Shown here in pieces: positions 20,474-35,482 of a stretch of 35,482 nt of DNA. Where the stretch lies: contig JAJFUI010000222.1 in NCBI GenBank assembly GCA_021372555.1, forward strand, positions 1 to 35,482, given 5' to 3'. How positions within the stretch are numbered: position 1 is the first letter of the stretch; the number at the start of each line of letters is the position of its first letter. The position numbers were made by a program, and so were the translations under genes. This stretch comes from Planctomycetaceae bacterium. GTDB lineage: Bacteria > Planctomycetota > Planctomycetia > Pirellulales > Thermoguttaceae. The notes under the pieces were generated by a model that worked only from the letters and a program-made list of their open reading frames with translations, ran no database searches and was not told the origin of the DNA.

Positions 20474-21403
20474 ATGCAATGGTCAGGATGTGGCACGGCG
20501 GCGATGGGGTTTCGGATCATGATTGCCGTGTTGAGCCTCTGTTCGACATGCCTTCCCGGTGTCGGGCGTGCGGCACAACTCGATGCTCAGCGCATTGGTC
20601 AAATCGTCGGCGTCAAGGCGACCGCGACCGCCCATGGCGTTGTGCGCGTCGGCTGGGCGCGCGACGACGTGTCGGTGAAAGTCGATGGGTTCGCCATGCA
20701 CCCGTTCATGGGCTTGGGCACATGGGCGGCTTTTCAACCAGCCGGCGATGTGGCGATGGTGATGGGCGATACGGTTCTCTTTGAGGACGAAGTGAATCCG
20801 GCGATCGACGCCGCGCTCGCGGCCGGCATCGAGATTACCGCCCTGCACAACCACTTCTTCTTCGACGAACCACGAGTCTACTTCATGCACATCGGCGGCC
20901 ACGGCCCGCCCGAAGTCTTGGCCTTGGCTGTGAGAAAGGTCTGGGATGCGGCGAAGGAAGTGCGCCGCAGGCAACACGTGCCGGCGAAGGCGTTCTCCGG
21001 CGGCATACCCAGACCTGGGAAGCTCAATACGCAGGCATTGGTGAAGATCGTTGGGGCCAAGGGAGTGGCCGATGGCGGCTTGTTTAAGATCACGATCGGC
21101 CGGACTACCGAAATGCACATGATGCCGTTGGGCGGCAGCATGGGCATTACGACTTGGGCGGCGTTCGCTGGCAGCGACGAGATGGCCATTGTGGATGGAG
21201 ACTTCGCCATGACCGCCCCGGAAGTGTCGGCCGTTCTGAAAGCCCTTCGCAAGACCAGGATTAACGTCGTCGCCCTCCACAATCACATGATGAACGAGCA
21301 GCCACCCATTTACTTCACGCACTTCTGGGGTAAGGGGAAGGCGGCCGACTTGGCCCAGGGCATTCGCGGCGCGTTGGATGCGCAGAAGCGTGCGACTCCA
21401 TAA
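20474..21403 (+). CDS. exported protein with two DUF1259 (LppY/LpqO) domains
   Basis: This 309-residue protein begins at ATG 20474, where GGGAGG lies about eight bases upstream; a frame start at 20459 lacks such a site. An N-terminal hydrophobic stretch (MGFRIMIAVLSLCSTCLPG) is a signal peptide. Two copies of DUF1259 follow. Copy 1 contains GLGTWAAFQPAGDVAMVMGD and ITALHNHFFFDEPRVYFMHI. Copy 2 contains MGITTWAAFAGSDEMAIVDG and VVALHNHMMNEQPPIYFTHF. The repeated ALHNH-(x)n-YF-x-H pattern supplies several His that could bind metal. This is the LppY/LpqO family; ChrL of the Arthrobacter FB24 chromate locus belongs to it. It is divergent from the ChrB genes and probably a periplasmic accessory of chromate resistance. 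The molecular activity is unknown. Confidence 0.87.
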   Translation: MQWSGCGTAAMGFRIMIAVLSLCSTCLPGVGRAAQLDAQRIGQIVGVKATATAHGVVRVGWARDDVSVKVDGFAMHPFMGLGTWAAFQPAGDVAMVMGDTVLFEDEVNPAIDAALAAGIEITALHNHFFFDEPRVYFMHIGGHGPPEVLALAVRKVWDAAKEVRRRQHVPAKAFSGGIPRPGKLNTQALVKIVGAKGVADGGLFKITIGRTTEMHMMPLGGSMGITTWAAFAGSDEMAIVDGDFAMTAPEVSAVLKALRKTRINVVALHNHMMNEQPPIYFTHFWGKGKAADLAQGIRGALDAQKRATP

Positions 21404-21826
21404 GCGATGTGTTCTGCGAGGTGACACGGAATCCATCATCCGGCAAACGCAGTATTCGCTCACAACCCTGATCCGCTAGTTCCCAAAACAGGGAAGCATG
21501 GCCTTCGGTGGCCCCATGACGCGGGGCAATTACGTGCGCCCTTTCGATGGTTGGTGCCTTCGGGTGAGGTTGCCAACCGCGACGGTGGCCCACCCTTGTG
21601 CCCGCGGTAGCGGCTATCGGCAGGTCATTGTCATTCTCATCGACGCGCGTACCGCATCGCGCAGGCAGCCGATGGCCTGATTCGGCAAAGGATTAGCCCG
21701 GCATTGATGGCTCGGCGAAATGGGAGGGTGGCAGACGTGAAACCGCGCTATAATGCCTACCCGGCGGGGGCCTGACGGCACTTGCAGCAAGGGTAAAATG
21801 AGCTAGGATTTACGTACAACTTGATC
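21404..21826. other. gene-free stretch, possible weak promoter at its end
   Basis: No supported gene is present. A TATAAT at 21749-21754 faces right towards the base-paired region, but the best -35 (GTGGCA, 21728-21733) is only 15 bases upstream, so the promoter is weakly supported. I see no terminator with a T-run behind the DUF1259 gene. Confidence 0.35.
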
Positions 21827-22010
21827 TCGGCGCGCGAAAGCGCGCCGAATTGCTGCTTCCAGCAAAACCGCGAACCTGAGTCCTCGGACTCTTGAACAGT
21901 AGAAGCAGCACCCAAACCGCGCTCCAAAACGGAGCGTCGGCCGGGTGCTGTTCTACTGTGCCCCTTCGCGGGGGTTGCTGGAACACGCTTGGTGCGACGC
22001 TCCGTTTTTT
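21827..22010 (+). ncRNA. candidate structured RNA or attenuator ending in a T-run
   Basis: Several nested pairings are directly visible. A 9-bp hairpin with a GAAA loop lies at 21827-21848. The outer stem pairs 21857-21874 with 21965-21983 (9+7 bp, AA/GGG internal loop). Within it are a small hairpin (21878-21891), a long stem of 21896-21913 with 21943-21959 (17 bp, one bulged G), and at its tip CGCTCC/GGAGCG (21920-21936). The 3' side of that tip, as 21926-21939, is also a perfect 14-bp complement of 21995-22008, which runs into TTTTTT. Two mutually exclusive folds, one ending in a terminator-like arm, suggest a leader attenuator for the gene at 22123 or an independent RNA. A palindromic mobile-element end is the alternative. 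It matches no family I know. Confidence 0.5.
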
Positions 22011-22122
22011 CGTTTCTTCATTGCGCGAGGGAAGCAATGCGTCTGCTCCGGCCCTGATGCCACGGCCTTTTCTGCCCCAACCGCACTTAGGCCAGCGGCA
22101 GGCGCGTTTTTGGGAGGGAAAT

Positions 22123-22485
22123 ATGAACGAAGGCTCAATACTCTTAGCCGCTTTTGGAACGTTCGTCGGCTTTCTCGCCGCAGTCTATTTGGCCACGGTT
22201 CTCCGTGGGTGGCTCGACCCGCAATGGGCAGCCGAAATAGATCGCAAGCAAGCCGAGGTAAAACGCGCCAAAGCGGAACGCGATGCCAAGTTGTTTTGTC
22301 CACATTGTCAGAAGTTTGGCCACGTCACCACGGACGCAACGACTGTGAAGAAGGGCATTTCTGGCGGCAAGGCGACAGCAGCCCTTCTGACAGGCGGCGT
22401 TACGATGCTGGCCACCGGCTTGTCGCAGGAGAACACGATGACGCAGGCGACATGCGCGAATTGTGGATCAACGTGGCTGTTTTGA
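22123..22485 (+). CDS. small membrane protein with C-terminal zinc ribbon
   Basis: The ATG at 22123 has GGGAGGG just upstream; the longer frame before it crosses the structured region and is not credible. The 120-residue protein has a membrane segment at about 5-27 (SILLAAFGTFVGFLAAVYLA) and a charged coiled stretch (QAEVKRAKAERDAK, 43-56). Two Cys pairs follow: CPHC at 59-62 and CANC at 111-114, a split zinc-ribbon arrangement. A hydrophobic, Gly-rich segment lies between them (about 83-101) and could be a second membrane pass or a turn. It is probably co-transcribed with the next gene, 16 bases away. The function is unknown. Confidence 0.72.
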   Translation: MNEGSILLAAFGTFVGFLAAVYLATVLRGWLDPQWAAEIDRKQAEVKRAKAERDAKLFCPHCQKFGHVTTDATTVKKGISGGKATAALLTGGVTMLATGLSQENTMTQATCANCGSTWLF

Positions 22486-22501
22486 CTTGGAGGACCACGC
22501 C

Positions 22502-23092
22502 ATGCTGTATCGCATAGTCGGAGAGGAAGTGGCAACTCGCCGCCATGTCGAAATTCCGAATTGGGATGCGCCCGACATTGCAGCGGCGAATCGCTTCGCC
22601 ACGGAAATCGGCGTTGCGGTGTCGAGAATCGAGCCGATGTATGCGCCGCGAACGGTTGTCCAGGAATGCAAAGGCGACGAGCCAGACGCGCTCAGCCCTA
22701 TTACCGTGGCCCCGGATGCCCCACAAAGTGAAACGACACCGACGAGCCGGCCTCCGTCGCTGGCCGCGATTATTGTCGCAATCGTGTGCCTGTTGGCCTC
22801 GATAGCAGTCGTCATCACCGCCATCAACACCTGCATGGAGAGCCGCAACTCGTCACATCCGTCTGAGATGATGACGTGGCCAACCAGCACAGTCGGCACC
22901 TCGGCAATTGACGAGACACTGCCGTCAGAATTGAAGAGGCGAGAAATCTTCCTCAATCTGGTCGCGGTGCAAGATGCCGGCGTCGGCGACGCGGAGGCAT
23001 TCACGCTCATGGCGCGGAAGTACGGCGTCCCCAAAGACGCGCTCTATCGAATTGCGTATGAAGGGGCGGCCAAGGGATGGCCCATGCCCTGA
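22502..23092 (+). CDS. membrane-anchored hypothetical protein, 196 aa
   Basis: GGAGG about eight bases before the ATG at 22502 decides the start. The N-terminal 50 residues (MLYRIVGEEVATRRHVEIPN, then APDIAAANRFATEIGVAVSR) look like a small folded domain that may be cytoplasmic. A Pro/Thr-rich linker leads to one membrane segment at about 87-109 (SLAAIIVAIVCLLASIAVVI). The C-terminal part contains a helical end, FLNLVAVQDAGVGDAEAFTL and ARKYGVPKDALYRIAYEGAA, in a pattern like a short helix-turn-helix-type repeat. I do not recognise a family. A decayed piece similar to its C-terminus lies 200 bases downstream. Confidence 0.62.
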   Translation: MLYRIVGEEVATRRHVEIPNWDAPDIAAANRFATEIGVAVSRIEPMYAPRTVVQECKGDEPDALSPITVAPDAPQSETTPTSRPPSLAAIIVAIVCLLASIAVVITAINTCMESRNSSHPSEMMTWPTSTVGTSAIDETLPSELKRREIFLNLVAVQDAGVGDAEAFTLMARKYGVPKDALYRIAYEGAAKGWPMP

Positions 23093-23493: not shown

Positions 23494-26400
23494 TCACTTT
23501 TGGCCCATATGTGGCTGCGTAATCGGCACTATGGCATACCGCACACTTGCCCCGCTCTTTGCGGGTTCCTTCTTATAGCTCTCGTAGCATTCGCGCGTTT
23601 CCGCGGTACGAATCACAAACGCGCGATTGTAATTCATGCAGACTCTCCTTAGGAACTCCGCCTGCACTTGCAGCCGACATCCGAACGCCAGCGGTTCGTC
23701 ACAGTAGTCGGAGCTGAACCAACCCTCGCGCCACACTTCGTAGCGAGCGACAGTGTCGGTGGTTTGGCGAATGTCAAAGTTGCTGAACTCCAGGGCGTGG
23801 TCGCCGATTATGTAGGGACATAGGCTCGCCATCGAGTGGAATCCGAAGACTGCGATAGGCGACCTGACGGTGCTAGTAACTGGCCACACCGCGCTCCGGT
23901 CATCTGGGTTGATATGAGTTGCATCCATGATCGCGTGCCGGAATTGATTCCAAGTTAAGCTCTCGTAAGGGTGGCGGGTCACGATCTTATGCTCGAAGCT
24001 GGCGTCTGTCACGTGGATGGCATCCAGATGCTCTGGACGAAACAAGGCAGCGCTGGTTTGTGTCTTGGACTTGTAATCCACATCGTGCGTCCCCGCCTGG
24101 GCCAGTTCCCGATACTCGAACACCGTCACCCATTCGCGTTGAAAGTCTGGCAGTACGGTTCGTTGCTCCCCGGCCTCAAGTTCCCCGATCCATTGGTCCT
24201 CGTCAGTCACGACAAGGGAGGGGATATCCGAGGGCCTCGCAGACGGGCGTCCAGCCAAGTAGAGCGGATCGCTCGGCTGGAGAATGCGCCAGATCACTTC
24301 CACTGTTCGTGGATGTACCCTTGTCTTGCACAGAATCTCATCAAGAACCTCGCCGAGCAAGCGGGTGATCTTGACGTGGAAGCTCGGAATGATCCACTTT
24401 ACAGGCCACCCTTGTGGATGTACATATCCCCTCCAGGCGTCCTTGTACTCCTCGATTTCGTCGTCCAGCGAGCCACCATTTTCTGTAAAGCGACGCTCCA
24501 AATGCCCTGCCATCTGGTCAACATCCAGCGAGAGCACATCGCAGCACCCCTCAAGCTGGCGACGGAAATCATGGAGAGTCGCTTGGTCGAGAAGCTCTCG
24601 GAATTGCAGGGAGGGATCGACCCGAACGATTCCGAACGTCCTGTTTGAGAATAGAGATGAGTAATCGCGGTCAACTTGGGCCAAGGCGTCAGCGACTTCC
24701 TTTGGAGCCTCCATCCCCTGAAAAGCTGCCCGTAACATATCGCGCACGAGCAACTTGACCGTCGCATTCTTCAGCTCAAGCAAGGAAGCGAGTCCCTGCG
24801 CGTTCTGCCTAACGCTCTCCGGCTGACGGTATGCAACCGCGTGTAGAACTTGAAGTAGCCGCGTCTGCTGAAGCCCCTCCGCCTGAAGCACACGCTCGGC
24901 CATGACCTGCATTGCCGCCGAGCGTGCGCAGCATAGCTCGCACAGCGCGCCCATGAGACGCCGCCCCAACTCAATTTCTGGTTCGGCAAGCTGATCTATG
25001 AGGATGCCAACAATCTGCTCATTCTCGTCTCTTTCGCGCGAAACGTACCGCTTTAACCAGTCGAACCAGTCTTCGTTTGGCAGATGCCTGAATAGTTCCT
25101 GGCAATGGATCAGGAAATCGTCGAAAACCTGATCTAGGTCCTCGATCTCGCCAAACACCTCGCATGCCGCTGCCGCAATACACGGTGTGCTCTGGCCGCT
25201 GTAGCTCGCCTCTAATGAATCGCGGATACCTTCAATACACACTCGTCGGGCGGTTCCTTTGTCAAACTTTGCCAGAGCAGCAATACTTGACTCAACAGTC
25301 GCCGTGGATACCGAATCACGAAACGCCTTTTCCAGAAGGGCTGTTCCACAGCTCAGATTCCCCGTTTGGATATAACGCGATCCCAGGCGCGCGAAGTAGG
25401 ACGCTCGTGCATAGACATCCCTTGTCTCGACTAACGTCTCAATCTGTGCCAATTCGTTGTCGGTGCGCGCGTGGTCAATGTGGAATGGCACGGTGGCATC
25501 TAGGATGCGATAATCTGAAACGTGCTCGTTTTGCGAGCGCAGCTTATCAAGTGTCTCGATCATAGCGCCGACCGATTGCTTACATAGCTCAATCACCTGG
25601 TTCTCGGCCACTGCAACGCCATCCAGATATGTCGGCTTCCGATCAATGCCACTGAGCCAGCCTTCTTGGGCGCTCTCCGGCTGCGGCTTTGCCCGCGGCA
25701 AGGCCCCGGCCTTCATGTCCTCCGGCCAAATCGCCGGATTCATTGAAGTAGCGACGTAGTGCGCCAGCCGTTCAGACCACGGAACGCTACTACCAGTGTT
25801 GCTCGAAGCAACTGCCTGAAGCCCGAGAATATGCTGCCGGCATTTGTGGGACTCGTTTGGGTGCAACAACGAGGCCAGTGCCCAGAGGTACTCGGGATCG
25901 CCGCCATTGCAGGAGAGAATATAGGTCTTGGCACACTCATTGGCTTGCCAGCGCCCAAACCGTTCGTAATAGAAGCGAAGCAAGTCCAATCCGGCTGGCC
26001 TGTCGGCGTCCAGCACAACGGGAAAGGACTCCTGCGGAAAGTTCTGAGTCTCCCTGCCATCGCTTACGCTCGGCATCCACTTAATCAGTTCGAGGATCGC
26101 CGCACTTCGCGCAAGAGCTTTTTCCGGTCTGTGTCTATTCACGCGCCGGAGAACGTCGGCGAGATTCAGCAAGGTCGTGTCCTTGCTGTAACCATACGAC
26201 AATGTCCCGTTCACTCCTTCTTGAAGCCACTGTTCTGCGTCGTCGCGGAAGCCACATCGGGCCGTAATGGCGCTCAGCTCAAGAAAGTGGCCCCCTCGTG
26301 ATCCGCCCTTGAGCTTCGACGCCTTAGCGTAGGATTCGGCGCAGCTCACGAGGACGGGCCGGAGGTTATGGCGTATCGCCGCGACCTGCGTCAGCCCCCG

Positions 26401-29400
26401 CCAGATGGGAAACTCGAACGAATAGTCATTTACTTGCTCGTTGATGCCATAGTGCGTTGTCCAGATGAACGAATGGCGGAGATCAACAAGAGCTTTAACC
26501 CATTCCTCAACTCGCTCCGGGCATCGCTCCGCGACAACTTCGCTCGCCCATCGTAGCGAATCGGGAAGGATGAATCGGACTGCATCCAGCGCATCTGGTG
26601 TCCGTTCGTAGGGCACATGACTGGCGGTCTTCAACCTTTCGAGCGATTGAATTGCGGTGTCGAACCAATCAATGCTATCATTCGTTCGGTGTGCGCCCAG
26701 CAGTTGTCCGATGTGCAGTAGGTGACCAAGCGTGGCAGCCCAGACAGAGTTGTCGCCCCGCAAGCGTGTGTGAAGCAGTCGGGCCAGATCGCCGTCGCGC
26801 GTGTATCCAAGAATCACGCTCCAATACGCAAACTCCTTGGTCCGATGCTGCAAATCCGCTCGAAGATCGTGGTCGCTTACGGTCTCTTTCGGCATCGAGA
26901 ACTGTCCGGCAACCTGTTGCACGAGTGCGACGGGCATTTGTGCCATCGTTGCAAGAAAGGCAAGCTCGATGTTTCTATCGTCTGGAAAACGCTGAACGTA
27001 AGCGTCTATCTCCCCCGCGAGCATACTGAGTGGCTTGTGCTCGGATACTGCTCGGATGAGGTAGTATCTGATTGCCTTGTTGGAAAATGGTTGCTCAAGA
27101 CGTTTTACCCGCTGCCAAAAGCGTTCCGGCTTGCTCGAAACCACGCCGTTGAGATAAGCCTCCAAGTGGGGCGCGTACTCAGGCTCGAAGCCCGGCGGCT
27201 CAAGGATGTCAGGGCCGAAAGTCTGACCCGCAAGCCATCGCATGGCCCTAGCAAACCTCGTCGGAAAGATGCCGGCACAGTGTGCCAAGACAACCGTGCC
27301 ATCCTTACCGAGAGCATCCGGCTCTTCTCGGCTGTTGAGCACGTCCCGAAACAACGCTTCGGCAAGGGAATCTTTGTCGAGTCCCTTTAGCCAGAGAACG
27401 ATCTGTGAAGCATAACCACGCGATACCACTAGCCCTTGGCTGTTCTCTTCGTAGAACTCCGCCACAACGTCGTCCACTCGCCCCAAGTGCAAGAGTGTTT
27501 CGGCGCGCGTCAACCACGGAAACTGATATTCGAGCCGTTCGTTAGTCCGGTGACGCAGGGAACCAAGCCTGCTGAGTTCAACGATATCGCCTTCCGCGGC
27601 AGCGGTGTCAATGGCGCACTTGATCGCTTCTTCGATCGTATCGGAGTACCGGTTATGAAGAAGTGCCTGATCGACGAATTCGCGATTGACGTGGGACAGC
27701 ACGTACTTGTGCTCTTTCGCCTCAGCGGCATACGTTAGCGCATGTTTGTACCAGCGTGGGGAACGTTCCTCTTGCTTGAGGCGGTTCGAGATCGCGGCAA
27801 CGATCTCCGGCCTTACACCGAGGTCCATGTGAGCCAGCACAAATACTCGGAAGCTATTGTGGAAGATTCTGATCAACCCTTGCTGATCCCTGAGCAAGTG
27901 CCTGACTTGGCGGTACGCCTCGTCAAACTCTCCTCGGCTAGGGACTCCCCGCTGGAAGTCGTATAGCTCTTCGTTATGCACGCGAAAGCGTAGCGACGCC
28001 AATACACAACTGAGATACTTTGCGTGGCCTCGCCCTTCGGCATCGAAGGCGTTCCATAGCATCTCGTAGTACTGCCGAATGTCGCCGTCAACAGTGGACG
28101 GCAATGAGTGAACAACATCCTCGGCGTGCTCGACGGCGGCCATGAGTTCGGCGATATACCGCAAATACAAGGGTAACCCGGCGCTTTTCTCCTGCACTTG
28201 TTGAATCGCAGAATCGGAAAGCACCAGTTGGCAGCGAGTCCGAAGGTATAGTTCGGTCTCCCGCGTGGAGAACAAAGGCATCTGAATGTGGTGCTGCTCT
28301 CGTCCGTGTTGAAGGGCGAGCGGTGTCCATCGGCGCAATTCCTGGGTGCCAACTACAAAGACAACGCCAGCGGGCACCTGAGCAGGAAGTGCCTGAAGGA
28401 CATCGTTGAGCACCGTGTCATCGCGTTCGGCGTGGTCCAATCCATCAACGAAAACGACCAGCTTCTTGCCTTCTGACTGGCAATGCGTGCCAAGACGTTC
28501 CAGGGACGACAGGAAGTGGGTCTCGCCCATGTCGAATCGTCGGTTCAGAACATCCGAGAAAGAAGAATACAGCAGGTCCAAGAGATTGGCGCGAAGACTC
28601 TGGGCTTCGAGCCGAAGCCGTTGCTGGTTGTCGTCAATTCGCACGAAACAATAGTATCGCACGACGTGGTATTGATCGGAACGATCAAGAGCATCGAAGT
28701 ATTTTGTCAGGGCGGTCGATTTGCCGCTCCCAGGTGGCCCGGTAACCACAATGTAATCGCTATCTACGGTGGCCAGCATTTGGTTGAGTTGGTCGCCCAG
28801 CGTCGGCGGCTCGACAAATCGCTGATCCTCGACGGTGAACCGCTGTGATAGCAGAAACCGGGATTGGGATTCTCGGAGGATCGAGTCAAGCAGGTTAAAT
28901 GTAATTGGGGCGTGCAATTCGATTGCATGTCGCTCGACCAAACTCTTCAACTCGGCGAAGACTTGCCGATCCGAAATGCCCAGTTCATGGTCCAGCAGCA
29001 CTGCCTGGATGTGGTGTTCCAATTCTTTCCAGGAAAGATGACCAACATCGAAATGAAAGCTGGCGAGGAAGTGCAAGAACTCCGGCGCGGTAAGCGAGGC
29101 CGCATCCTTCAAGGCTTGTCTGTAGCGCGCTTTATCCTTGCGATAACGGCCCTGCTGGAACTTGTCATCGAAGTGGCCATCGGCATCGACTACTTGAGCC
29201 AAGTCCGAATCGAAGTTGCGATTGGTCCGAAGATGAACTGCGATCGGCACACCTGGATTGGAGCCTACTATGCGTTTCCAACTTGCGGCAAATCTGCCAA
29301 TGAAAACGTTGGCCTTCTCGTCGAGGAAGTCGTCGCCACTATATGTTGCATGAGGATCGACGGCGTGCTTGACCTGATACGCATCTACTCGTTGCGGCTG

Positions 29401-29562
29401 GTGAACAACGATATCGTCCAGGTTTCCCGCCTTCTCATATTCGATGAAAAGCTCGAAGGGCGCACGCTCGATGTAAAGCTCAAGGGCGAGGCGTAGAGCC
29501 GTGAGGTCCTGATACTCATCACCCTTCCGGCGAGAGCTTCCCGTTTTCGTTTTGTCCTTCAT
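23494..29562 (-). CDS. Avs-like STAND ATPase with N-terminal Cap4-like nuclease
   Basis: This 2022-residue protein has three regions. (1) Residues about 10-235 look like a Cap4/DUF4297-type dsDNA nuclease: RRKGDEYQDLTALRLALELY, FELFIEYEKAGNLDDIVV and DAYQVKH, a PD-(D/E)xK-like set with Glu16, Asp49/Asp50, Gln63 and Lys65. (2) About 250-560 is a STAND P-loop ATPase, with Walker A GPPGSGKST (275-283), Walker B LVVFVDGLDH (368-377) and the sensor-like VVFVVGTQELRRW. (3) About 560-2022 is a long, mostly helical region typical of sensor arms, with a distinct C-terminal part containing VARYEVWREGWFSSDYCDEP and LQVQAEFLRRVCMNYNRAFV. Known antiviral STAND (Avs) proteins combine an N-terminal effector, STAND core and helical sensor that recognises phage proteins. 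The start lies 18 bases after the hsdR stop, and GGAGG directly abuts that stop. Confidence 0.82.
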   Translation of the reverse strand: MKDKTKTGSSRRKGDEYQDLTALRLALELYIERAPFELFIEYEKAGNLDDIVVHQPQRVDAYQVKHAVDPHATYSGDDFLDEKANVFIGRFAASWKRIVGSNPGVPIAVHLRTNRNFDSDLAQVVDADGHFDDKFQQGRYRKDKARYRQALKDAASLTAPEFLHFLASFHFDVGHLSWKELEHHIQAVLLDHELGISDRQVFAELKSLVERHAIELHAPITFNLLDSILRESQSRFLLSQRFTVEDQRFVEPPTLGDQLNQMLATVDSDYIVVTGPPGSGKSTALTKYFDALDRSDQYHVVRYYCFVRIDDNQQRLRLEAQSLRANLLDLLYSSFSDVLNRRFDMGETHFLSSLERLGTHCQSEGKKLVVFVDGLDHAERDDTVLNDVLQALPAQVPAGVVFVVGTQELRRWTPLALQHGREQHHIQMPLFSTRETELYLRTRCQLVLSDSAIQQVQEKSAGLPLYLRYIAELMAAVEHAEDVVHSLPSTVDGDIRQYYEMLWNAFDAEGRGHAKYLSCVLASLRFRVHNEELYDFQRGVPSRGEFDEAYRQVRHLLRDQQGLIRIFHNSFRVFVLAHMDLGVRPEIVAAISNRLKQEERSPRWYKHALTYAAEAKEHKYVLSHVNREFVDQALLHNRYSDTIEEAIKCAIDTAAAEGDIVELSRLGSLRHRTNERLEYQFPWLTRAETLLHLGRVDDVVAEFYEENSQGLVVSRGYASQIVLWLKGLDKDSLAEALFRDVLNSREEPDALGKDGTVVLAHCAGIFPTRFARAMRWLAGQTFGPDILEPPGFEPEYAPHLEAYLNGVVSSKPERFWQRVKRLEQPFSNKAIRYYLIRAVSEHKPLSMLAGEIDAYVQRFPDDRNIELAFLATMAQMPVALVQQVAGQFSMPKETVSDHDLRADLQHRTKEFAYWSVILGYTRDGDLARLLHTRLRGDNSVWAATLGHLLHIGQLLGAHRTNDSIDWFDTAIQSLERLKTASHVPYERTPDALDAVRFILPDSLRWASEVVAERCPERVEEWVKALVDLRHSFIWTTHYGINEQVNDYSFEFPIWRGLTQVAAIRHNLRPVLVSCAESYAKASKLKGGSRGGHFLELSAITARCGFRDDAEQWLQEGVNGTLSYGYSKDTTLLNLADVLRRVNRHRPEKALARSAAILELIKWMPSVSDGRETQNFPQESFPVVLDADRPAGLDLLRFYYERFGRWQANECAKTYILSCNGGDPEYLWALASLLHPNESHKCRQHILGLQAVASSNTGSSVPWSERLAHYVATSMNPAIWPEDMKAGALPRAKPQPESAQEGWLSGIDRKPTYLDGVAVAENQVIELCKQSVGAMIETLDKLRSQNEHVSDYRILDATVPFHIDHARTDNELAQIETLVETRDVYARASYFARLGSRYIQTGNLSCGTALLEKAFRDSVSTATVESSIAALAKFDKGTARRVCIEGIRDSLEASYSGQSTPCIAAAACEVFGEIEDLDQVFDDFLIHCQELFRHLPNEDWFDWLKRYVSRERDENEQIVGILIDQLAEPEIELGRRLMGALCELCCARSAAMQVMAERVLQAEGLQQTRLLQVLHAVAYRQPESVRQNAQGLASLLELKNATVKLLVRDMLRAAFQGMEAPKEVADALAQVDRDYSSLFSNRTFGIVRVDPSLQFRELLDQATLHDFRRQLEGCCDVLSLDVDQMAGHLERRFTENGGSLDDEIEEYKDAWRGYVHPQGWPVKWIIPSFHVKITRLLGEVLDEILCKTRVHPRTVEVIWRILQPSDPLYLAGRPSARPSDIPSLVVTDEDQWIGELEAGEQRTVLPDFQREWVTVFEYRELAQAGTHDVDYKSKTQTSAALFRPEHLDAIHVTDASFEHKIVTRHPYESLTWNQFRHAIMDATHINPDDRSAVWPVTSTVRSPIAVFGFHSMASLCPYIIGDHALEFSNFDIRQTTDTVARYEVWREGWFSSDYCDEPLAFGCRLQVQAEFLRRVCMNYNRAFVIRTAETRECYESYKKEPAKSGASVRYAIVPITQPHMGQK

Positions 29563-29580
29563 GGAACGAATCTATCCTCC

Positions 29581-32658
<3,078 letters not shown>

Positions 32659-32725
32659 CTCGGTATTCACCTCTTGTCGTCATTTTCCATTGCGATTACT
32701 CATCACGAAGTCTGCTCCCATCCGT

Positions 32726-33898
32726 TCAATGTTGTGGACACCATTTGCCATCCTTGTTGTAGTTGGAACTTCCCGTCAATCCTGCCGACTGCCATACGGT
32801 ATCAAAGATCGGCCGCAAAATTGTCGCTGCCTCATCGTTGAGGTCTTCGATGACAATCTCGGGCAGGAGAAGCAGGTCTCGGTCTATGACCGGCACGCGA
32901 TTTCGGAAGGAGTATCTCGGCCCAAGAATCATTGTGAACCCCTTCACGCCGACCATAGACAACATCGCGATGACGGGCGGTTCAATTGACAGTTCCCTCA
33001 GTAGCTTCACATAGGCGTCGGTCACACGGATCAGTTCCTCTTCGTATGCGATTGATGGAATGCCAGGCTTGTTTCCGATCAACGTAACACCATCAACTGA
33101 CTCTATGACTCCAGACCGGAAGAGTTGGGTGTAGGCGTAGCATGGGCCGCCGTTCCCTTGATGTTGGTAGGTTACACAGCCATCGAGATTCATCCTCCGA
33201 TCAAAGCCAAGTGCGCCCATAGCAGGAAGCCGGGCGAAGTTGTGTGACACCGATACTACATCGACTGTCGTCGGCTTGCTGAAGCTGGAAACCGGCAGCA
33301 GATGAAGGATCATCTTGGCCCCGGAATCCATTGGTAGAGGCGTCTCGCCGGCCACGATTTTGGACAAGCGGCTGTCCCTGAACCGCCGGATGCGCTCGGG
33401 AATCGCCTCCGCCATAAGGAATGCCGCGCGAATCTCGGTCACGTCCATTTGGTACTTGCCCGCGCTGTTCCTCGTGTGGAACCGCGAGGTGCCCTTGAAC
33501 GTGACCATGTGGGGCGATGTCCAACTCTGCGGAATCCGAACGAGCAGCACCGGTCCCTGCGGGAATCCGCCCACGCCCTTGATTCGGACCCCTGGGATGC
33601 GCGGGTCGAGTCCCGTTTGGATCATGCTGTCGAGTCGCTGGATTTCGGCATCGGCATTGGCGATCTCCAGGCCGGGAATCGCGCTCGGTATGCCCTTCTG
33701 GGCATCCAACCCGTAGAGCAAGTCGCCACCAGCCGCGTTCGCGAAGGAGGAGATGTCGGCCAGACACTCCTTCTTGTCCTGGTCCGTGTTGCCCGGCAGC
33801 GTCCGCTTGTATTCTATAGTCCGACCCTCGGGCACGCCGGTAGCCAGCAGGGCGTCGATGTCGGCTTTCGTGATGTCGTCAAACTGCTTTGGGATCAT
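32726..33898 (-). CDS. Schlafen/AlbA_2-type putative nucleic-acid-binding protein
   Basis: This protein is 390 residues from ATG 33898; a TTG two codons earlier is possible. The N-terminal domain (about 25-150) is AlbA_2-like (Schlafen group): EGRTIEYKRTLP, then DKKECLADISSFANAAGGDL and LYGL, followed by the beta-rich part VLLVRIPQSWTSPHMV and FHTRNSAGKYQMDVTEIR. AlbA_2 proteins bind nucleic acids, and some Schlafen relatives cut tRNA. The Glu-rich active site of nuclease Schlafens is not evident to me. The C-terminal half is not recognised, but contains AKMILHLLPVSSFSKP and ends with basic and Trp residues. It starts two bases after the preceding gene's stop with no clear ribosome binding site, so translation is probably coupled. 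It sits between a HEPN gene and hsdR, as such genes often do in type I loci. Confidence 0.75.
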   Translation of the reverse strand: MIPKQFDDITKADIDALLATGVPEGRTIEYKRTLPGNTDQDKKECLADISSFANAAGGDLLYGLDAQKGIPSAIPGLEIANADAEIQRLDSMIQTGLDPRIPGVRIKGVGGFPQGPVLLVRIPQSWTSPHMVTFKGTSRFHTRNSAGKYQMDVTEIRAAFLMAEAIPERIRRFRDSRLSKIVAGETPLPMDSGAKMILHLLPVSSFSKPTTVDVVSVSHNFARLPAMGALGFDRRMNLDGCVTYQHQGNGGPCYAYTQLFRSGVIESVDGVTLIGNKPGIPSIAYEEELIRVTDAYVKLLRELSIEPPVIAMLSMVGVKGFTMILGPRYSFRNRVPVIDRDLLLLPEIVIEDLNDEAATILRPIFDTVWQSAGLTGSSNYNKDGKWCPQH

Positions 33899-33900
33899 GG

Positions 33901-34875
33901 TCAAGAGACAACGAGCCGTTCTTGATGTGTGTCGAACAGGAAGACAGCAAGCGTCGTCGCCGCGCCCACCGCGAGGCGAGCGTGACGAGCGGTAAGACCC
34001 TTCACTTTACCATCCTTGCCGTGTCCGGTTCCGTACAAGTTCCGAAGTTCGGCGAGGTTCTGTGTTATGGTGGCGAGATTGCCCAAAAGCGACTTGATCG
34101 ACCTTGCACCTTTGTGTGCATCAGTAATGCCATCAGGAACAAGGCTCAGTTCTTCGAGGGCACGCCGCACGAGTGGTAAGACATCCGGCTTATCGGTAAC
34201 AGGCTTGCTTCGCGCAGCGAGAATCGTATGGCAACACGTTTCGACCAGTTCTTTTGCTGTTCCAATGGCAAGGTCCGGGTCGCTGTCAAGTGCGGTGGTC
34301 ATTCGATTGATTTGCTGATGAATGTAGTCTGCATCCGCGAATTGAACGACGGACTTGGCCACATTTGCCGTATATTGAGAGGACGCAAGCCGTTGGGGGC
34401 CGTAGATCGGTCGCCCCGAGATTGTGGACTGCTCTACAAGTACCCATCCATCGAACGTGAGTAGCTCATTGAGAGCGACTACAATCTTCGCAGCTTGCTC
34501 ACGGTCGGGACGCACTGCTGGATGCACCATTTCAGCTAAGAAGTTCAGATAGACTGCATCAAAACCATCTGCAAGCTGAAATCGGCCGTCATTGAAGACC
34601 CATTGGTCGTCCCAGTCGTAATTGTTGACTCGATGTTGCCAAATGTCACCCTCCGCATTCTCAAAACGGTGATCGGTCGATGGCATGGATGACAAGTCAT
34701 ACAGCCGATTGAGAAACTCAGTTTCCTCAAGGTCTCCGCACCAAGAAATGGATTCGCGCACGAGCATTCGTCGTATGTCACGTCGGGTAACGTCGGTGAT
34801 CGAGTTCGCGGTCGTTGACCGCCCGGTCTCGGCTTTGTCTCGCCGATTAGGGGCCAGTGTGCTTTCCTGTGTCAT
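33901..34875 (-). CDS. abortive-infection protein with AbiJ-type N-domain and Abi_C HEPN
   Basis: This protein is 324 residues from ATG 34875; a longer frame start at 34929 overlaps the upstream gene and lacks support. The ATG overlaps the upstream stop as ATGA, with GGAGAGAG just before it. Residues 25-160 resemble the AbiJ N-terminal domain 3: ITDVTRRDIRRML, AVYLNFLAEMVHPAVRPD, and LLTFDGWVLVEQSTISGRPI. The C-terminal domain (about 200-315) is Abi_C, a HEPN fold, with the signature AELRNLYGTGHGK at 276-287: Arg278, Asn279 and His285 form the RNase-type R-N-x(n)-H motif. Such proteins are thought to act as toxin-like RNases during phage infection. Here the gene lies inside a type I restriction operon, suggesting a back-up that acts if restriction fails. 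That role is inference. Confidence 0.82.
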   Translation of the reverse strand: MTQESTLAPNRRDKAETGRSTTANSITDVTRRDIRRMLVRESISWCGDLEETEFLNRLYDLSSMPSTDHRFENAEGDIWQHRVNNYDWDDQWVFNDGRFQLADGFDAVYLNFLAEMVHPAVRPDREQAAKIVVALNELLTFDGWVLVEQSTISGRPIYGPQRLASSQYTANVAKSVVQFADADYIHQQINRMTTALDSDPDLAIGTAKELVETCCHTILAARSKPVTDKPDVLPLVRRALEELSLVPDGITDAHKGARSIKSLLGNLATITQNLAELRNLYGTGHGKDGKVKGLTARHARLAVGAATTLAVFLFDTHQERLVVS

Positions 34876-35482
34876 GGTGTTCTCTCTCCACTCAACGAGG
34901 CAATGCCGGCTTTTAGCACTTGCAGACAAATCTGTGCTGTGTGTCGGTCGGGAGCAAACCGAGAACTCATTTGCTGATATGGATGGATGTAATTGCGGAA
35001 GTCCCGAAGGGCGTGGCTGAACTTCTTCACATCGACCTTCAAATAACCGAGTTCACAGGCAACGTCGATGAATTGTGCTAGCGACCATTCGGGAAAAGGG
35101 CGAACCTTGCCAGTGTCGTCTTTGGGGCTTGCTGCGGCCAAATTAAACGCCTTGGGATTTGCAAGGGCTGTTCCAAGCAAGAGACCTTCCAAGATGCTCC
35201 CGCACATGAAGATCGAAGACAGAGGGGCATTTGAATGGAGGCAGCGTGCAGCTTCCTGGTAACGGGCATCGAGGATTGGAATCAATTTCGCATCAATGGG
35301 AATGCTGCTCAAGGAGACATTGCCGTAGTCCCGCTGCAAAAACTGGTCTTCGGTGTCCTGGCCAACATCTTGGTTACCGCATAGCCGCGAGGCTATCTTG
35401 CGGCAGTGCCCGGCCCTTGCTTTCTCGGCATCGGTGGCATTCGGGTGTTGGTATGCCCAAATGTCGATCAATTCACCAAGAG
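34872..35482 (-). CDS. HEPN-like protein, 5' end beyond the window
   Basis: The frame stays open to the right edge. The first possible in-window start is TTG at 35471 without a good ribosome binding site, and the residues before it (LGE) fit the same protein, so the true start is probably outside. At least 199 residues are seen. A helix FMCGSILEGLLLGTAL is followed by SLAQFIDVACELGYL and then FSHALRDFRNYIHPYQQ. The last has the R-D-x-R-N-Y-I-H form of HEPN domains that act as RNases or dimer partners, and the order helix, spacer, RN-IHP matches HEPN/DUF4145-like proteins found in restriction loci. Its stop overlaps the start of the AbiJ-type gene by four bases, so it is the first visible gene of the defence operon. 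Confidence 0.6.
   Translation of the reverse strand, partial: LGELIDIWAYQHPNATDAEKARAGHCRKIASRLCGNQDVGQDTEDQFLQRDYGNVSLSSIPIDAKLIPILDARYQEAARCLHSNAPLSSIFMCGSILEGLLLGTALANPKAFNLAAASPKDDTGKVRPFPEWSLAQFIDVACELGYLKVDVKKFSHALRDFRNYIHPYQQMSSRFAPDRHTAQICLQVLKAGIASLSGERTP

Follow-up and report, generated by a model that had tools for sequence, protein, structure and literature searches.

A structured RNA family, mainly of Planctomycetota, with two conserved competing folds and a candidate role in transcription attenuation

The locus and its predicted structure

The window analysed here is the whole stretch of 35,482 nucleotides from a Planctomycetaceae bacterium (GenBank assembly GCA_021372555.1, contig JAJFUI010000222.1). 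Its plus strand carries a strongly folding segment at 21820-22015, with promoter-like sequences before it and a run of six T near its end, and two open reading frames follow on the same strand. The first of these was described in the initial annotation as a zinc-ribbon gene; the two CxxC pairs that are the sole basis of this name are indeed there, whereas a Pfam scan of the 120-aa protein gives no family at E<=0.01. Further away, an ORF at 1299-1766 on the plus strand (YGFRPGRSAHDALRQ...) resembles, by eye, part of a group II intron reverse transcriptase, and 23494-34929 on the minus strand is occupied by a run of defence-type genes. The features are listed below; P1 to P4 and the competing helices were placed via the family alignment, and the names N and T refer to two alternative folds of the same RNA.

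21772-21799, plus strand: promoter-like CTGACG-16-TAAAAT, a consensus match only (consensus scan, 1 site against a shuffle mean of 0.1)
21782-21809, plus strand: promoter-like TTGCAG-16-TAGGAT, a consensus match only, found by eye
21816-21824, plus strand: conserved 5' segment ACAACTTGA (family form ACAATTTGA), outside all counted helices
21827-21835 with 21840-21848, plus strand: P0, a 5' hairpin of 9 bp (family consensus GACGC..GCGTC)
21853-21865 with 21975-21986, plus strand: P1 of fold N, whose 5' arm is segment s1
21853-21859 with 21902-21908, plus strand: P1' of fold T, pairing s1 with s4
21868-21874 with 21965-21971, plus strand: P2, whose 5' arm is segment s2
21878-21882 with 21887-21891, plus strand: P2a hairpin
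21897-21911 with 21945-21958, plus strand: P3, whose 5' arm is segment s4, with bulged G21905
21920-21925 (A) with 21931-21936 (B), plus strand: P4, the apical hairpin
21931-21939 (B) with 21995-22003 (A'), plus strand: B:A', a terminator-like helix competing with P4
21961-21974, plus strand: P2', a local hairpin competing with P2
22005-22010, plus strand: U tract of six T, read from the sequence
22123-22485, plus strand: first downstream gene, an ORF of 120 aa with an N-terminal membrane segment (hydropathy) and two CxxC pairs
22502-23092 (scanned as 22499-23089), plus strand: second ORF downstream, encoding 196 aa, without a Pfam family at E<=0.01
within 23494-34929, minus strand: NACHT/AAA protein of 2022 aa, weakly matching a Cap4 nuclease
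within 23494-34929, minus strand: type I restriction R subunit
within 23494-34929, minus strand: Schlafen AlbA_2 protein
within 23494-34929, minus strand: AbiJ-like abortive-infection protein

The predicted folding energy of 21820-22015 is -102.8 kcal/mol as opposed to a mean of -69.0 (sd 4.7) for dinucleotide shuffles, i.e. z is -7.2 and none of 200 shuffles is as low; the minus strand of the same segment gives a folding z of -7.7. The nested stems noted in the initial annotation, which had proposed computational folding as a check, are thus borne out, and their positions could be mapped via the family alignment. The perfect 14-bp complement between 21926-21939 and 21995-22008, running into six T, is likewise present in the sequence.

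Comparison with known families supports the description of the RNA as uncharacterised. Rfam 15 has no match at gathering threshold in the window, the three sub-threshold matches found in 21400-22500 at E<=10 reach no more than 17.9 bits where the cut-off is 60, and none of the five Rfam matches at 18 loci with other copies lies at the position of the RNA. A paper describing the RNA was not found in the open PubMed Central literature. The family is apparently uncatalogued, a claim of novelty limited to Rfam 15 and the literature searched.

Covariation in two competing folds

Fold N, which consists of P1, P2, P2a, P3 and P4, is paired in 96.3% of 5091 cells of an alignment of 106 copies (A5, made with MAFFT and built without structure; the four weakest copies, L129, L131, L132 and L046:3969, are omitted). 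Changes on both sides occur in 39 of its 49 pairs, a number reached by none of 500 shuffles nor by any slid version. The helices of fold T (P1', P2' and B:A') are paired in 97.7% of 2118 cells, 15 of their 20 pairs are changed on both sides, and this again was reached by 0 of 500 shuffles. The two sets compete for the same strands, P1 and P3 with P1', P2 with P2', and P4 with B:A'. Since kinship among sequences inflates covariation counts, we placed the changes on a FastTree phylogeny by parsimony and counted compensatory events falling on the same branch, with slid partners as the control (0.2 to 5.3 same-branch events). Paired cells and tree events over the 106 copies are 97.3% and 7 in P0, 94.6% and 99 in P1, 99.0% and 33 in P2, 96.8% and 28 in P2a, 94.8% and 93 in P3, and 98.6% and 14 in P4. 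The competing helices give 99.5% and 15 events in B:A' (0.7 with slid partners), 99.3% and 12 in P2' (0.8), and 94.6% and 9 in P1' (1.7). A, B and A' are mutually dependent, so the signal of B:A' is partly shared with P4. The covariation at homologous loci that had been suggested as a check on the stems is strong.

The strongest argument for fold T comes from pairs that exist solely in the alternative fold. Alignment columns 64 and 133, the latter being the bulged G and the former its partner in P1', are both unpaired in N and form a standard pair in every one of the 106 copies; the tree shows 4 compensatory events there and 0 broken. Pair 187-260 of B:A', which lies outside P4, has 5 events and 1 broken, and the P2' pairs 217-230, 218-229 and 219-228 have 3, 2 and 4 events with 3, 0 and 0 broken, respectively. 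The bulged G had initially been taken as a break in a pairing that is otherwise maintained. The bulge in P3 is real; its reading as a damaged or tolerated pair did not stand, because G21905 can pair with the 5' arm in the alternative fold in every copy, so that its unpaired state in N is explained by the second fold, within P1'. By this comparative evidence, evolution has preserved both folds, the nested N and the competing T.

The molecule under selection can be told from the wobble pairs. In fold N read on the plus strand, 34 copies contain 144 G.U cells and 17 A.C cells, and this excess indicates that selection acts on the plus-strand RNA; a single-stranded DNA structure and a minus-strand RNA were rejected on the same asymmetry. 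With covariation beyond chance and relatedness and with G.U prevailing over A.C on the plus strand, the comparison of copies makes it almost certain that we are dealing with a real structured RNA family.

Several neighbouring elements were also considered. The U tract is well kept, at least 6 T being found within 11 bases after A' in 98 of 106 copies, and a frequent TTGCGCC after the T-run (L048, L050, L037, L049 and others) might base-pair with the GGCGC in A'. P5, a candidate terminator hairpin formed locally (21980-21985 with 21998-22003), was rejected as it shows 4 compensatory versus 56 broken events. A true pseudoknot of P2 and P2' was set aside by reasoning only, because the linking loop would hold zero bases. 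At the 5' end, alignment columns 20-23 of the ACAATTTGA segment are conserved in 91-99% of the 106 copies. An in-frame NTG (ATG, GTG or TTG) occurs within five codons of this segment in 58 of 105 anchored copies, the other frames giving 25 and 9; a conserved mini-ORF ending in ACAATTTGA was nevertheless rejected, CTG being the commonest preceding codon and the window having no such ORF by eye.

Energy predictions favour fold N. Predicted stability is greater for N than for T in 91 of the 106 copies, the median gap being 11 kcal/mol, and 15 copies favour T; in the window copy the predicted difference is 6.8 kcal/mol in favour of N. The unconstrained minimum lies within 3 kcal/mol of constrained N in just 29 of 106 copies, and energy models of such size are too rough to decide the sign of the preference. 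In the predicted folding of the growing window transcript P1' appears at 106-138 nt and is supplanted by P3, P2 and P1 before A' is synthesised, and B:A' is never reached, so fold T needs help. Read literally, this model would make read-through the default, and termination would require some factor. The loop of B:A' is about 55 bases, which is long for an intrinsic terminator, and no classical intrinsic terminator (a GC-rich hairpin with a loop of 3-8 bases, then a T-run) was found in 21650-22150; both points count against simple intrinsic termination.

Distribution and genomic setting of the family

When 197 genomes (that of the window and relatives) were searched at the DNA level, 29 yielded matches, several of which are short. 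A covariance model (R1), built from 34 aligned full-length copies out of the fetched loci, found a copy at E<=1e-4 in at least 29 of 392 genomes across the phylum, scoring being limited to 6 candidates in each. Thirteen selected genomes were given a second look with a larger number of candidates; 9 of them carry 1 to 7 copies and 4 carry none. A pattern scan of named genomes gave 63 matches. Together with 2 viral ones, most of these were confirmed by the model, nearly all are labelled Planctomycetota, and the complete genome of the cultured strain Pan216, which has three copies, is among those with confirmed copies. No convincing proteobacterial copy was found among the 63 pattern hits checked with the covariance model. 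Single copies occur on short contigs of metagenome-assembled genomes labelled Verrucomicrobiales and Methanoregulaceae, possibly as a result of mis-binning. The RNA family is thus found mainly in Planctomycetota, where it is patchy, with 1-7 copies per genome having it.

As to how the set of copies was assembled, 36 of 56 model-checked pattern and viral matches were added; the others were 15 already in the set, the cut copy L153, the second weak match in L154, the weak matches L152 and L164, and one reverse partial match. Two of an earlier set of 77 matches were reverse-strand partial matches and were dropped, and one duplicate, L102, was removed from the set used for downstream genes.

The initial annotation had named many copies with terminal repeats elsewhere in the genome, as expected of a mobile element, as one observation that would speak against a structured RNA. 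In the window's genome BLAST finds a single full copy and the covariance model one strong copy, the model adding one weak match (E 0.03), so the RNA is not a multicopy mobile repeat there, as a MITE-like repeat with many copies per genome would be. At E<=1e-5 the window copy has no match among 50,697 phage records and 72,556 plasmid records; one copy of the family sits on a 94-kb IMG/VR contig. Some copies seem to be located at the start of integrative elements, the order tRNA gene, integrase-like gene (by eye), RNA being shared by L044 (66-138) and L047 (6731-6804). Two copies of genome G491, L101 and L102, lie within a repeat of about 8.4 kb (90.6% identical) with a conjugation-type ATPase by eye. 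At L046, two copies of the new RNA stand in tandem, and about 2.4 kb downstream of them there is a match to the Rfam int-alpA RNA (1539-1609).

The gene calls around the copies are crude longest-ORF calls, with 59 of the 110 RNA copies overlapping a long ORF. The nearest downstream gene is on the same strand in 79 copies, on the opposite strand in 9 and absent in 22 (n=110), while the corresponding numbers for the nearest upstream gene are 56, 43 and 11. For 109 of the 110 copies an ORF of 40 aa or more could be selected within 260 bases, the remaining copy being at a contig edge; it is the orientation control, not this distance-selected count, that carries the positional argument. The end of the RNA model lies a median of 54 bases from the chosen start codon, at most 30 bases in 25 of 109 copies and about 10 bases or less in some. 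When six copies of genome G469 are compared, they have in common the promoter-like region, the RNA and about 46-68 bases beyond, after which the genes are unrelated in most pairs. Copy pairs of G513 and G130 are likewise homologous up to about the start codon and continue into unrelated genes, and in G058 and G491 the leader is duplicated along with its gene.

Membrane or secreted proteins and GYF_2 domains are over-represented among the products of the first genes. Among first genes of at least 150 aa, 47 of 66 encode a membrane segment, compared with 192 of 695 other ORFs at the same loci (homologous genes retained). Pfam detects 119 families in the 109 first-gene proteins, the most frequent being GYF_2 (9 of 109). 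In six complete or nearly complete genomes there are 50 GYF_2 matches, an estimated 1 per thousand genes or so, and by coordinate comparison 3 of the 14 RNA copies in these genomes directly precede one. A shared function of the downstream genes was not found by Pfam in the 109 proteins, and PADLOC gave scattered defence-like matches among the 109 first genes, at most 3 of 109 for any family listed. Copies at L034, L048, L050, L064 and L065 precede a recurring protein of 60-68 aa of the type DRDKLIGQYEWLRRMMHHLDMQTEQID. One membrane segment and two CxxC pairs are predicted from the sequence of the window's own first gene, which fits the membrane-protein theme.

A possible two-state leader and its alternatives

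The family is very probably a cis element. Two mutually exclusive helices, P4 and B:A', share strand B, and the second of them stands before a U tract. This is the arrangement of an attenuator, as the initial annotation had suggested, and a cis-acting two-state leader that works by transcription attenuation (terminator/antiterminator) is the best supported of the readings that we infer; from the sequence data we put its probability at about 0.65. Transcription would start just upstream of the RNA, and P1' would form as the polymerase moves and would then be displaced by P3. In state N, P4 would sequester B, A' would be left without a partner, and the polymerase would read into the gene. A factor favouring the P1'/P2' side, whether ligand, protein or altered polymerase speed, would leave B free for A', and the GC-rich helix B:A' directly before the U-run would stop transcription (state T). 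Transcription, termination and ligand are what we infer. The genes so controlled would be accessory ones, with membrane, secreted and GYF_2-domain proteins over-represented, and they are so diverse, given 119 Pfam families in 109 proteins, that no common input is evident.

The promoter-like sequence before the RNA, the U tract after it and the compact, strongly folded, in several genomes multicopy molecule could be those of a stand-alone, trans-acting small RNA of about 200 nt that carries a promoter and a terminator of its own, the downstream gene being merely a neighbour read by leakage. We regard this as unlikely because downstream genes are co-oriented (79 versus 9) and upstream genes unbiased, because start codons within 30 bases of the RNA end leave no space for a second promoter in the 25 copies concerned, and because the 3' end has no terminator hairpin in fold N. 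It is also quite improbable that N is the sole functional fold, with P1' as a conserved folding intermediate guiding co-transcriptional folding and B:A' as a constitutive terminator or a late, unregulated rearrangement. Such a role for P1' agrees with its predicted transient appearance in the window's nascent RNA, gone once P3 forms, and with the greater predicted stability of N in most copies; however, it leaves unexplained the compensatory upkeep of P2' and of the B:A' pairs outside P4, as well as the match of A' to B in 99.5% of cells.

A DNA-level explanation, i.e. a mobile element or a recombination site such as a miniature transposon or an attC-like cassette site, would account for the patchy distribution (at least 29 of 392 phylum genomes, with 4 of 13 lacking it in the second look), for the integrase-like genes seen by eye close to copies at 4 of the clustered loci, for the copy on the IMG/VR contig and for the two G491 copies inside the 8.4-kb repeat. 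It appears very unlikely to us, since the preponderance of G.U over A.C is the mark of RNA pairing, the window's genome has one full copy, and the within-genome homology takes in the promoter-like region and ends near start codons. The least credible option is a switch acting on translation start or mRNA processing rather than on termination: some start codons do lie within about 10 bases of the RNA-model end, but the distance to the start varies whereas the U tract is kept directly after A'.

It is useful to compare the proposed attenuator with known leaders. Classical attenuators such as T-box leaders and the pT181 repC leader are terminator/antiterminator leaders with an A:B versus B:A' architecture. 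The likeness is that an upstream A pairs with the 5' arm B of the terminator-like helix and that A' is a near copy of A. They differ in that the new RNA has no identified tRNA-binding or antisense element, that its P1, P2 and P4 each have a conserved counterpart in T, and that the genes controlled are mutually unrelated. With riboswitches the new RNA has in common a conserved folded leader, a built-in alternative ending in a U tract and several genes per genome, whereas it has no known ligand or pathway common to the genes and few strictly conserved unpaired bases. Rhodopirellula-1 (PMC2864571, Weinberg et al. 2010) is tabulated as a candidate motif of Proteobacteria and Planctomycetes and a probable cis element of uncertain RNA status, in a table giving no Rfam accession. 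Set beside that table row alone, the new family is similar as a planctomycete candidate and probable cis element, and differs in that Rhodopirellula-1 is listed for Proteobacteria while the hits checked here include no convincing proteobacterial copy; judged by the table description, Rhodopirellula-1 is possible prior art.

On a more speculative note, the sequences might represent a new class of sensor RNA in Planctomycetota, a riboswitch or a protein-gated RNA in which bistability extends beyond an expression platform to essentially the whole molecule, a portable promoter plus switch that places unrelated accessory genes under one signal. We offer this as a tentative idea; many of the controlled genes would then encode membrane proteins that carry GYF_2 or zinc-ribbon domains. 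The case for alternative folds commonly rests on a single sequence together with energy models. In this family, evolutionary evidence over 106 copies backs both folds, pairs that belong to one fold only among them, which makes the switch hypothesis testable mutation by mutation. The family would define a regulon made up largely of proteins of unknown function, and for a phylum in which little is known about gene control it may offer a regulatory handle.
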